Shown piece after piece: positions 42,515-46,771 of a stretch of DNA of 46,771 nt. The notes beneath the pieces were generated by a model. The model was given only the letters and a program-made list of their open reading frames with translations, was not told the origin of the DNA and made no database searches. Within the stretch, counting starts at the first letter, position 1. Each line of letters starts with the position of its first letter. Source of the stretch: Methanosarcina spelaei (GTDB lineage: Archaea > Halobacteriota > Methanosarcinia > Methanosarcinales > Methanosarcinaceae); NCBI RefSeq assembly GCF_002287235.1, contig NZ_LMVP01000079.1, positions 1-46,771 on the forward strand, written 5' to 3'. Both the position numbers and the translations under genes were made by a program.

Positions 42515-43948
42515 TTGAAAGAAGAATGTGGCGTTGCAGGCATAATTCTACCAGGCGACAGGCCACAATCCAATACTGTCGCATTCAAGCTATATTACGC
42601 CTTGTATGCCCTCCAGCACAGAGGACAGGAATCCACTGGCATAATGGTATATGATGGTACATCCTCTCATTCCATTAAAGGCATGGGTCTTGTCCCTGAT
42701 GTGTATAACAAAGATTCTCTGGGGCACCTGATCGGAAATGTAGGAGTAGGGCATGTCCGTTACTCAACTACCGGAGGATCAAAAATCGAAAACTGCCAGC
42801 CCTTTATCCTGAATTTCAAAGGAGGCGCAGTTGCAATTGCCCATAACGGGAACCTTGTTAATGCCAGAACGCTCAAGGACGAACTGGAGTGCGAAGGCCG
42901 TATCTTTATCAGTGATTCCGATACCGAAGTTATTGGTCACCTTCTTGTAAAAGAATTGATAAGACACGACCCTATAGAATCAATCCGGAATGTCATGCGC
43001 AAGCTTGTTGGTTCCTATTCTCTTGTTATCCATATCGACGGCGCTATATACGCTGTGCGGGACCCTCTTGGTCTTAAACCGCTATGTTTCGGGAAAGTCG
43101 ATTGTGGATATGCAGTCTTCTCGGAAAGCGTAGCCCTTGATACCCTTAATGGCACCCTTATCAGGGATGTACGGCCAGGTGAGGTAATAGTTTTTACGGG
43201 AGACGGCTTTGAGAGCTATCAGATAGGAAACGAGCCTCATCCTGCGCACTGTGTCTTTGAGTTCATTTATTTTGCAAGACCCGATTCTATTATTGACGGA
43301 AAACTGGTCTACAAAGTGCGGGAAAATATCGGAAGGGAGCTTGCAAGAGAGCATCCGATAGAGGCTGACGTTGTTTCTCCTGTCCCGGACTCCGGGATTA
43401 CTTCGGCAATTGGCTATGCCAGGGAATCAGGCACTAAATACCTCGAAGGCTTGATGAAGAACCGTTATATAGGGCGTACATTTATCCTGCCTGGCCAGGA
43501 GCTGCGCGAAACCGCAGTCCGACTTAAAATGAATGCTATCCAGGATAATGTCAAAGGCAAACGTGTGGTTCTGGTTGACGACAGCATTGTCAGGGGTACA
43601 ACCTCAAGGCGGATTATAGATATGATCCGCAGGGCAGGTGCGTCAGAAATTCATTCAAGGGTAGGAAGCCCTGCAATTATCGCTCCCTGCTATCTGGGTA
43701 TAGATATGGCTACCCGGCAGGAACTTATTGCTTCTTATAAAACCGTAAAAGAGGTTGAAAGCCTTATTAATGCGGATTCCCTCGGATATCTGAGTATTGA
43801 AGGACTTATGAGGGCTCTTGAATGCGATAGGAGTGACATGTGCCTTGGCTGCCTCACAGGCGAGTATCCTGTGGAAATCCCTGGAGAAAACTGCATACGG
43901 AAACAGACACGTCTGGACGACTTCGACAATAAACCGAAAAGTCCCTGA
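42515..43948 (+). CDS. purF: Amidophosphoribosyltransferase PurF
   Basis: Converts PRPP and glutamine to phosphoribosylamine, the first committed purine step. The 477-residue product starts MKEECGVAGI: the Cys at position 5 would be the N-terminal nucleophile after removal of a four-residue propeptide. The glutaminase domain (to about 230) has RYSTTGGS and HNGNLVN. The PRTase domain has VVLVDDSIVRGTTSRRI, the PRPP loop. C-terminal Cys in CDRSDMCLGCL fits the [4Fe-4S]-containing subclass. Translation starts at TTG, with GGAGGT five bases upstream; the Cys position supports this start. It links with PurN in the one-carbon island, both in purine synthesis. Confidence 0.95.
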   Translation: MKEECGVAGIILPGDRPQSNTVAFKLYYALYALQHRGQESTGIMVYDGTSSHSIKGMGLVPDVYNKDSLGHLIGNVGVGHVRYSTTGGSKIENCQPFILNFKGGAVAIAHNGNLVNARTLKDELECEGRIFISDSDTEVIGHLLVKELIRHDPIESIRNVMRKLVGSYSLVIHIDGAIYAVRDPLGLKPLCFGKVDCGYAVFSESVALDTLNGTLIRDVRPGEVIVFTGDGFESYQIGNEPHPAHCVFEFIYFARPDSIIDGKLVYKVRENIGRELAREHPIEADVVSPVPDSGITSAIGYARESGTKYLEGLMKNRYIGRTFILPGQELRETAVRLKMNAIQDNVKGKRVVLVDDSIVRGTTSRRIIDMIRRAGASEIHSRVGSPAIIAPCYLGIDMATRQELIASYKTVKEVESLINADSLGYLSIEGLMRALECDRSDMCLGCLTGEYPVEIPGENCIRKQTRLDDFDNKPKSP

Positions 43949-45029
43949 ACGACTCTTCCCAGTTGATTCGTAAGGAACTTTCTTCACTATTCTTTTTGAA
44001 TTCTTTCATTATCTTCGTGAAATCTGCAAGGAGACTGGATTCGCCTACGACATTTTAAGCCATGAATGGAAGCTTCACGGATTCACCGAGTGCAGCCCGA
44101 GTCAGTTTTCAACTCCGGAACCCGGATAAATCGCCATTGTCTCCGAGCTGGGTTATATGCTTGAAAAAGTCCGTGATAGATCGGACACTTGGATCATGTG
44201 ATGACGCTGGGACTGAACAGAAAATGTGGAAACAATTGAACGTTTCGAATCGTGTTGACGTGGTGATTTTCAGAAACCAGGTGCATGAACACCTGCATGA
44301 GTGGCGTGTATATCCAAGTGAGTCGAGTTTCCCAGAATAATTTTCCGGAAATACCTAGCTATGGCGATGCATTTTACAGTGCGGATGACATCGATGCCTT
44401 AGTGCGTGAACTGAGCGGCGGTGAAATCACGGAATGTGTCGGGTGAATCCATTTTTTGGAAATTGGCATCGAGGTACTTAAAACGGTCTCCTGATGTGTG
44501 AGCCAACAGTTTATAAAGTTAACGTCGCAAAAAACAATCATCAAACGATCCATTTATGTTTTTTTGAAAAATATTATCGGGCGACTTGAAAACAGCCATC
44601 CGTTTTAGTTATCACGAGTTTACACTGTTATTGAAAACCAACATCAATAGACGTTGCTCAAGGCACATGTTTGTGATTTTTCAGTGTGACCGGCATGATG
44701 GTCGGTAGTAAGTGGTCACTATCATCCTTTGCCCGCCCCGGCCCTTACAGCTTAGTCGAGGCCGGTTTAAAGCTGGCGGTCCTTCGGACCCGCTTCGCTC
44801 GCCAGTATTAAACGGCTGCTTCTTCACTTTTTTGGGCGCATGCCGGGGCGGGATAGAGTGGGGCTGGAAAAAGAATTCCTCCAGTGGAGAACTTAACGGT
44901 GAAAAACACCGACCGAAGCTCGTGGGATTGAGTTAAAAGAGAGAATGAGTGGATTATGGTGATACAAAATGCAAGTGTGAATGCAAAAACGATTTAATTT
45001 AATCATTTTACATTTTTAAAAATCGTCCA
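43949..45029. other. Anomalous kilobase with coding-like scraps and a long palindrome
   Basis: No intact gene is recognised. A 92-residue frame (44062-44340) and a 53-residue one (44285-44446, ending IDALVRELSGGEITECVG) overlap in different frames and together look like a frameshifted gene; the second has coding character but no family name. Composition and codon choice look unlike neighbouring Methanosarcina genes. A 74-residue frame at 44712-44936 crosses the palindrome at 44732-44852 and is likely spurious. Overall it resembles imported DNA in decay. Confidence 0.5.
44732..44852. repeat. 121-bp imperfect palindrome
   Basis: Outer arms CCCGCCCCGGC and GCCGGGGCGGG pair perfectly. Inner arms GCCGGTTTAAAGCTGGCG (44761-44778) and CGCCAGTATTAAACGGC (44800-44816) pair with bulges. 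The apex holds GGTCC-TTC-GGACC and CGCTTCG. The whole can fold into one long bulged hairpin, reminiscent of integron attC sites or structured ends of mobile DNA, but the attC core ends (RYYYAAC and GTTRRRY) are not seen. Confidence 0.75.
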
Positions 45030-45386
45030 TTACATGTTACTAACTTCTTCTATAACTTTTTCTGCACATATGAGAGAATTGTTAACATGTCCCTTCTTTA
45101 CTTCAATGTGTAAAAAATAATCAGCGGTAGTTCTGTTTTGTCTTAATTTATATAACATATTACGTACTAAAACATTGATCCCTGCCATGTAGTTAATTAC
45201 TTCTTTATGCGCCTTCCCACTAGGACTTAAAGTATAATTTTTGGATTCCAAGTATGTTCTAGAAACTAAAAACGCCGAATAATAAGCTCTACTAACAGAT
45301 GTTCTATATTTAGATTCATCATGATAACTGCTATCATCTACCAATTGACGAGATAAATTTAAAAAATTGCATGGATCAAAAGGCAT
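45030..45386 (-). CDS. HEPN domain protein (UPF0332-like)
   Basis: A 118-residue helical protein of the HEPN superfamily, many of which are RNases in toxin-antitoxin or defence systems. Typical segments: FDPCNFLNLSRQLVDDSSYH, then YRTSVSRAYYSAFLVSRTYL, and LYKLRQNRTTADYFLHIEV, in which RxxxxD(Y) is the HEPN-like signature. I use the ATG at 45386; an upstream in-frame ATG at 45404 overlaps the previous gene. The stop of that gene is one base away (TAAAATG), so translation is coupled. It is the last gene of a three-gene operon. The catalytic RX4-6H motif is not fully clear, so enzymatic activity is uncertain. Confidence 0.75.
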   Translation of the reverse strand: MPFDPCNFLNLSRQLVDDSSYHDESKYRTSVSRAYYSAFLVSRTYLESKNYTLSPSGKAHKEVINYMAGINVLVRNMLYKLRQNRTTADYFLHIEVKKGHVNNSLICAEKVIEEVSNM

Positions 45387-45387
45387 T

Positions 45388-45975
45388 TTAATCAACAAAA
45401 CCATCTATTTTTTCTGGGTCTTCCAAGAGAATTATTGGGTTTCCATATTTCTCAAGGATGTCTTCATCCCGAACCTCGGTTGAATCTATCCTTTCCTTTA
45501 CACTTTCACCAATCTTTCTCCATAAATCAAAATATTTATCATAATTAATAATCGTTAAGGGTAATTTTATAGAGATTACAAACTCTTCCCAGTCTGGGTA
45601 CTCTTTGTCTTTAATGAGACAAGCGTTTATTTTAATATTGTCAATTTTCCCAAATTTTTCTAATTGAGAAAAAATTTCTGACAAAATTTCGTCTAATAAA
45701 ATATCAAAAGATTCGTTATCTAATTGGCTTATCTTTGAGTCAAAAATAATATTATTAAGTATAGAGTTATCGTAATATTCATTAGCCGTTGAACTTTCAT
45801 ATTCTTCTATCCAAGCAAGATAGGGTTTAGACATTGTTTTAATCATTTTGTTTGAATAAATGTTAATTACATTGTCCACTGTTTGTATAGCAGTAAGGAA
45901 TACGGAATTTATCTGACTTGAATTAATCAACTCCACTCCAGAACTATTAAACTCTATGCAAGTAATGAAATCCAC
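45388..45975 (-). CDS. Unrecognised 195-residue protein, middle gene of the HEPN operon
   Basis: Begins at GTG (MDFITCIEFNSSGVELINSS), two codons after the stop of the upstream gene; AAGGA is very close to the GTG. No family is recognised. The N-terminal ~80 residues mix strands and helices, the middle (SFDILLDEILSEIFSQLEKF) is a helix, and the region INACLIKDKEYPDWEEFVISIKLP looks like an alpha/beta half. The C-terminus is acidic (DEDILEKYGNPIILLEDPEKI). No membrane segment or signal peptide. Strong AT bias in codons. By position it could be an antitoxin or a partner of the HEPN protein, which is inference only. Confidence 0.65.
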   Translation of the reverse strand: MDFITCIEFNSSGVELINSSQINSVFLTAIQTVDNVINIYSNKMIKTMSKPYLAWIEEYESSTANEYYDNSILNNIIFDSKISQLDNESFDILLDEILSEIFSQLEKFGKIDNIKINACLIKDKEYPDWEEFVISIKLPLTIINYDKYFDLWRKIGESVKERIDSTEVRDEDILEKYGNPIILLEDPEKIDGFVD

Positions 45976-45980
45976 CGTCC

Positions 45981-46385
45981 TTACCGAGATTTTAATTTAT
46001 GTTTTATTAAAGGCTGGGCTTGTACCACATATATAGGTATTTTTTTTGAATCAAATTCGCCTGTTCTAATAACCTGTGAAATGAAGGGTTTTATCATCAA
46101 AGTGACATCTTTTTCTAAGTTGTACTCGTTCCAGTCTTCGTCAGAACTTGTTACTTCTACATATTCATCCTTACCTAATGATGTACTCCCAATCATATCA
46201 TCGGTAGGCGTTACTCCTACGACATTAGTCACCTGAAAACCCAATGATGTATTTCCTCGTGAATCCTGTCCCTCTTTAATGACCTTCACTAAGACTATTT
46301 TTAATTTAAGAGTTGCACCGTCAGACAACTTGTAAAAATTCCATTTTTCTTTCACTTCATCAAATTTGATTTCTTTTGGATTCAC
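45981..46385 (-). CDS. Unrecognised 134-residue beta-rich protein, first gene of the HEPN operon
   Basis: The frame opens at TTG 46397, but GGTGAT (46391-46396) lies five bases before a GTG at 46385 and could serve as its Shine-Dalgarno, so I take the GTG. The start reads MNPKEIKFDEVKEKWNFYKL. The rest alternates hydrophobic residues as in a beta-barrel (TLKLKIVLVKVIKEG, TLMIKPFISQVIRTG, IPIYVVQAQPLI). No family recognised. It is closely followed by the 195-residue gene with a 5-base gap, so all three form one transcript. An upstream AT-rich region (46398-46568) should hold the promoter. Confidence 0.6.
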   Translation of the reverse strand: MNPKEIKFDEVKEKWNFYKLSDGATLKLKIVLVKVIKEGQDSRGNTSLGFQVTNVVGVTPTDDMIGSTSLGKDEYVEVTSSDEDWNEYNLEKDVTLMIKPFISQVIRTGEFDSKKIPIYVVQAQPLIKHKLKSR

Positions 46386-46568
46386 CGAAATCACCAATAA
46401 ATGTAGATAACATAATTAGGTCCAATAGATAAAAAAACATACGGTATTCAAAAACATATTTTAAATTATAGTCTTAGAGTATTTAAGAATAACTTTTTTA
46501 ATTGAAATTGTATGATAGGATCTCAAATTAGCTTTTAAAATCTCTAATCTAATTTGATATCCACTTCT

Positions 46569-46771
46569 TTAAAAGTATCTCCCAAATGAATTTTTGCTTT
46601 CAACTTTATTTTGCAATTCTGTCAACACCATCAGTTGATATGCTATGAAACTCAATAGAGAGTAGAGTTTTCTACTCTGATTTCTTACTCTTCTAATATC
46701 GAATTTTACTGTACCCTTAATATGTCCATGTATCTTTTCACATTCAGCTCTCTTTTTATACTGATCATCAA
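46569..46771 (-). CDS. Transposase, C-terminal fragment (truncated by window edge)
   Basis: On the minus strand a frame is open from the window end to the stop at 46569-46571. It reads DDQYKKRAECEKIHGHIKG, then VKFDIRRVRNQSRKLYSLLS and FIAYQLMVLTELQNKVES. This is the C-terminal end of a DDE-type transposase of the kind common in Methanosarcina insertion sequences. The Glu of RAECEK may be the last catalytic residue. The family (IS4, IS5 or IS1182 group) cannot be fixed from 67 residues. It lies upstream of the HEPN operon on the same strand, so read-through is possible. Confidence 0.7.
   Translation of the reverse strand, partial: DDQYKKRAECEKIHGHIKGTVKFDIRRVRNQSRKLYSLLSFIAYQLMVLTELQNKVESKNSFGRYF

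Follow-up and report, generated by a model that had tools for sequence, protein, structure and literature searches.

The 121-bp palindrome downstream of purF in a Methanosarcina draft genome is most likely a horizontally acquired, solitary member of a family of branched hairpins that we found in ten genera of the class Methanosarcinia. We give an even chance to the fuller interpretation, namely that the family is mobile, acts as a folded single strand and is represented here by one acquired copy. The window, i.e., the whole stretch of DNA analysed, is the complete 46,771-nt contig C79, one of 559 contigs of this genome. Most knowledge of folded single-stranded DNA sites, such as attC sites, REP sequences, IS200/IS605 ends and single-strand promoters, comes from bacteria. 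A family of covarying DNA hairpins in ten Methanosarcinia genera would give a new handle on gene movement in methanogens and related archaea; it is embedded in insertion sequences, brackets ArdC cargo and is nearly invisible to BLAST, and a covariance model makes it searchable.

Structure of the palindrome

Folding of the element (Table 1) confirmed the shape proposed in the initial annotation. The outer arms are a perfect 11-bp inverted repeat composed entirely of G and C, the inner arms are bulged, and the apex is branched, with stems of its own. The 125-nt stretch at 44730-44854 has a GC content of 61.6%. The palindrome folded better than dinucleotide shuffles as DNA (z -2.1) and better than shuffles as RNA on the two strands (z -2.7 and -2.9), and it was the most stable fold among 6,337 segments of 125 nt drawn from 382 kb of its genome. 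No other all-GC 11-bp inverted repeat with a spacing of 20-150 bp occurred in that sample, and when the 310-bp neighbourhood of the palindrome was shuffled 200 times, a perfect arm never reached 11 bp.

Table 1. Coordinates of the palindrome, its parts and the neighbouring features in the window.
Feature	Position	Strand	Remark
purF, amidophosphoribosyltransferase	42515..43948	+	left neighbour; collinear with relatives
Spacer downstream of purF	43949..44020	.	alignable with other Methanosarcina; left junction of the acquired region
Unmatched region	44021..44731	.	no detectable homologue; ORFs no longer than in shuffles
Palindromic element	44732..44852	-	121 bp; minus strand is the family model strand
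Left outer arm CCCGCCCCGGC	44732..44742	.	perfect 11-bp arm
Conserved 49-nt apex GTTTAA-TA-CTGGCG-A-GCGAAGC-GG-GTCCGAAGGAC-CGCCAG-CT-TTAAAC	44765..44813	-	
Mini-hairpin GTCCGAAGGAC	44779..44789	-	GAA triloop
Mini-hairpin GCGAAGC	44792..44798	-	GAA triloop
Right outer arm GCCGGGGCGGG	44842..44852	.	perfect 11-bp arm
Transposase C-terminal relic	44875..45000	+	frameshifted, ~40 aa; homology starts ~22 bp past the palindrome
Three-gene operon with HEPN protein (45030-45404)	45030..46397	-	reads toward the palindrome
End of a multicopy repeat	46515..46771	.	probable insertion sequence; the contig breaks there

A hairpin family in Methanosarcinia

The search for other copies gave a divided answer, negative by BLAST in the genome and the genus and positive by covariance model in other genera. 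BLAST detected no second copy of the palindrome in its own genome and none in 30 other Methanosarcina genomes, and neither the palindrome nor its kilobase had a match in plasmids, phages, E. coli genomes or the genus. Being single-copy and without a genus match, the palindrome did not present itself as an insertion-sequence end in its own genome or in Methanosarcina. The sole yield of a class-wide BLAST was an apex match in the Methanosarcinaceae MAG Zod_Metabat.786 (Zodletone; G032), with two short matches on one contig that carries three related hairpins. We built a covariance model (R2) from only these three hairpins, with the window copy excluded. In a search of 430 kb, it gave the window copy a score of 45.3 bits (E 6.6e-11), a test that is not wholly independent because the first two G032 hairpins were noticed via their likeness to the window apex. 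Searching 238 genomes of the class with a second model, which included the window copy, we obtained 29 matches in 15 genomes. For the final set, we dropped a weak match in Methanosarcina G009 (26.8 bits, with a poor fold of z 0.2), judged to be chance, and added a second G190 copy from a contig scan. The resulting 29 copies come from 14 genomes and 10 genera (families f1, f3, and f7), with 1-6 matches per genome; most of the carrier genomes are drafts or MAGs.

BLAST hardly detects this family, the shape of which is conserved more than its sequence. Searches of open-access papers and of Rfam returned no description of the family, which we provisionally regard as apparently undescribed. Exact-pattern scans of viral contigs and genome contigs gave no true relatives outside the G032 MAG. 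Matches at L128-L132 and L182 were chance matches in coding sequence. Four viral contigs (L075, L080, L081, and L083) share a conserved hairpin in which a CAAGCAAGCAA-type stem encloses two GAA mini-hairpins, next to a gene for a protein that begins (V/M)AQPEKLFWQQ. It is an otherwise different phage hairpin, the mini-hairpins in common were part of the search pattern, and the two hairpins are probably unrelated.

Conserved architecture and covariation

Members of the family are ~120-180 bp long. All are built from a long outer palindrome, whose arms vary, together with a GATMA/TKATC-type stem, a T-T mismatch and a short inner stem; most also have two apical mini-hairpins, often with GAA loops. 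Membership was defined by the T-T mismatch between the AT-rich stem and a CTGNCG-type stem, by two apical mini-hairpins and by GC-rich outer arms. The window copy has all of these features, with its T-T mismatch at 44807/44771, and deviates only by an A-C mismatch at 44806/44772, where most members have a G-C pair. The outer arms vary freely, whereas the apex fold, the T-T mismatch and the mini-hairpins are kept across the 10 genera. The mismatch, beside the apex, is nearly invariant: its left T was present in 29 of 29 copies, and a single copy (28 of 29 agreeing) departed at the right T.

Double-sided changes were observed in 12 of the 16 stem pairs, with 91% of cells paired; as the copies are related, these counts do not equal independent events, and the changes span different genera. 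The covariation score was 0.454, compared with 0.121 for shuffled and ≤0.080 for slid controls, and it was still 0.415 on an alignment that had not been fitted to the structure. As DNA, the members folded better than shuffles (median z -4.7), although several copies in G236 and G237 did hardly better (z -0.4 to -2.5). The strand with the GAA loops was the more stable one as single-stranded DNA in 23 of 28 members. In RNA helices, G-U pairs are normally more frequent than other mismatches. The 430 pair cells of the family stems comprised 410 Watson-Crick pairs, 3 G-T pairs and 17 other mismatches, i.e., G-T was no commoner than the other mismatches. Given this rarity, which is unlike RNA helices, the constraint on the stems looks to be at the DNA level.

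Genomic contexts and a possible mechanism

Most copies are solitary and intergenic, and the family recurs in mobile contexts. Three genomes (G127, G129, and G122) have the hairpin inside IS110-type elements, where it is placed between the transposase gene and what appears to be the right end. In G122, one copy sits in a transposase-less, internal-deletion derivative of such an element (L168 compared with L180), and a distance of 247 bp separates another copy from a different IS110-type gene. Eight copies in G236 and G237 belong to dispersed units of ~400 bp that have one common left end and no ORF. In 3 of the 14 genomes (G032, G204, and G190), a hairpin precedes an ArdC-type gene or its operon, and its model strand was the template strand of the ArdC operon in all three. 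G032 has two paralogous loci, ~81% identical, in which direct hairpin modules of 200-225 bp surround different cargo: ArdC and two small ORFs at one (L072, 6062-7401), and a 140-aa ORF at the other (L162, 2593-3110). The two cargoes have no similarity to each other. Two inverted hairpin modules enclose ArdC and a partner gene in G190. No recombinase, transposase or Rep protein was consistently found beside the hairpins, no plasmid matched them, and over all copies we saw no clear rule in the orientation of neighbouring genes. No integrase was recognised among the minority of hairpin-flanking genes that were scanned and annotated.

Several side observations were made at these loci. With the same hairpin-module frame around different cargo, L072 and L162 resemble a natural, cassette-like swap. 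An uncharacterised gene with a cysteine/histidine motif (CxGW...CRH) precedes the ArdC gene in L163 (10646-12451) and L164 (9853-11688), a pair conserved in two genera. Directly downstream of one G127 copy, we found group II intron domains (L136, 1749-2481).

These features suggest how the hairpins might work. The functional form would most likely be the folded single strand with the GAA loops, which is the minus strand in the window. A protein acting in trans may recognise this hairpin through the GATMA/TKATC stem, the adjoining T-T mismatch and the two GAA mini-hairpins; the last two features offer a direct target for a binding test. Either the hairpin itself or the DNA flanked by a pair of hairpins would then be moved or exchanged. 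A more specific form of this model, in which non-attC hairpins serve as single-strand recombination sites of an archaeal cassette system distinct from integrons, with a putative recombinase exchanging ArdC-like anti-defence cargo, seems to us unlikely. The cargo difference in G032 could also have arisen by homologous recombination between the 200-bp repeats.

Alternative explanations and known elements

ERIC/RU-type sequences are imperfect palindromic intergenic repeats of ~120-170 bp. The family might likewise be a passive palindromic repeat (ERIC/REP/MITE-like debris), non-autonomous and spread by the insertion-sequence enzymes of the host, a possibility that we regard with reserve. Its symmetry would then stem from its origin or from arm-to-arm gene conversion with no single-strand step, which we likewise hold to be possible but doubtful; palindromic repeats can stay paired by such conversion without any single-strand use. 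The mostly solitary, intergenic copies fit this explanation, as do the internal-deletion derivative in G122 and the ORF-less units of G236. Nevertheless, freely varying outer arms beside a retained apex fold, T-T mismatch and pair of mini-hairpins, together with covariation in the fold, argue against a passive repeat, in which an internal mismatch is not expected to be kept. The hairpins resemble ERIC/RU (RU: PMC2759123) in being ~120-170 bp imperfect palindromes scattered between genes, and differ in unrelated hosts and sequence, in covarying, in the branched apex and in bracketing cargo in G032 and G190. With REP/BIME and their RAYT (TnpA-REP), they share a dispersed, mainly intergenic distribution and conserved imperfections, and REP/BIME are thought to be moved in trans (PMC2817692). 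They are, however, 4-5 times longer than REP/BIME, have a branched apex and number 1-6 per genome. No REP-type, GTAG-like tetranucleotide occurs at the foot of the window copy, whose feet read CTTTG and CTCTAT on the two strands. Because IS1111/IS110 insertion sequences target attC or REP palindromes (PMC11187229), the IS110 links may reflect targeting. IS110-type genes adjoin or surround several hairpins, as at such targets, but the hairpin of G127, G129 and G122 is internal to the element, and most copies have no IS110.

The hairpin could also be an establishment site or single-strand promoter of conjugative elements, folded on the entering strand and driving or gating the early expression of ArdC and other anti-defence genes. 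Comparable cases are Frpo/ssi (PMC11541004) and, on pLS20, the inverted-repeat regions that precede ardC (PMC8708921). They likewise place folded DNA or inverted repeats ahead of anti-restriction genes such as ArdC, and the position upstream of ArdC in three genomes, with the model strand always the template, is consistent with this role. We think it improbable, as the majority of copies, including that in the window, have no ArdC nearby, and plasmid matches are absent. We also identified no archaeal promoter element within the fold, where the conserved stem alternates between TTATC and TGATC, and promoter activity is hypothetical. A further difference from the comparators is that the hosts are archaeal. 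A structured RNA, either regulatory or encoded by a small RNA gene, would explain the strong fold and the covariation, but we consider it very unlikely, given that G-T/U cells (3/430) are as rare as other mismatches and that the flanking modules and locations vary between lineages. Rfam gave no match at E ≤ 1 for the window stretch, nor did the hairpins at L072 and a further 14 loci match any of its models. As for attC, to which the initial annotation had likened the shape, the resemblance held up, in that the hairpins form a covarying family, occur in mobile contexts and, in two genomes, bracket cargo. Membership did not: the core boxes RYYYAAC ... GTTRRRY were found flanking the hairpin in 0 of 28 members, and the window has no such pair. 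We therefore rejected the hairpin as an attC, its conserved part being apical. Integrons are present in archaeal MAGs (PMC9668308), and attC sites are likewise long bulged hairpins with one active strand and with cargo between sites, as between the modules of G032; unlike the hairpins, attC sites are conserved at the feet, carry core boxes and are associated with an integrase, which we did not see near the hairpins examined. It would be very surprising if these were true attC sites of an archaeal integron or CALIN (cluster of attC lacking integrase).

The island beside purF

Alignment with relatives downstream of purF stops at ~44015-44025, and from ~44026 to 44860 there was no DNA match in the 30 other Methanosarcina genomes, plasmids or phages. 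The kilobase had been described as foreign in composition; the lack of matches agrees with a foreign origin, but its GC content (43-46%) is that of the purF side (45-48%), and the AT-rich part is instead the HEPN side (28-33%). In the closest relative, purF is followed by yjbQ (named by translation) and then by a gene for a PKD-type repeat protein. A DNA search for yjbQ in this genome found nothing, and contig C401, which holds the far side of the island, carries the PKD-type homologue, then a Schlafen/AlbA_2-type gene and the contig end; on these grounds, an island has replaced yjbQ beside purF. It contains the unmatched DNA with the palindrome, the transposase tail, the HEPN operon and the multicopy repeat at the contig break. 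Acquisition of the palindrome is suggested by its absence from 30 of 30 other Methanosarcina genomes by BLAST, with one weak covariance match (G009), and by the missing yjbQ. Since a partner hairpin and an obvious enzyme are missing in the window, the copy is probably an inert remnant within this island.

The overlapping frames before the palindrome had been taken for one frameshifted gene, which our analysis did not bear out. The longest ORF of the unmatched region (92 aa) was equalled in length in 337 of 1000 dinucleotide shuffles, and its frames had no convincing match in Pfam, NCBIfam, PHROG, PDB or Halobacteriota. For the frame-joined version (44000-44446), a PDB match (E 0.13) and Halobacteriota matches (best E 0.0014 over 393 genomes) were judged to be chance. 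The only coding debris near the palindrome is the transposase tail, spread over two frames, whose intact homologues in other genera are ~375-425 aa long with a DDE_Tnp_IS240 domain. Across L034-L039 and L041-L051, short C-terminal relics of one such transposase come from Methanosarcina genomes, where they are scattered, and full-length matches from other genera of the class. The locus between purF and the PKD-type gene is variable (window 43949-46771; C401, L090 4977-6783), with further differences after purF in G030 and G027.
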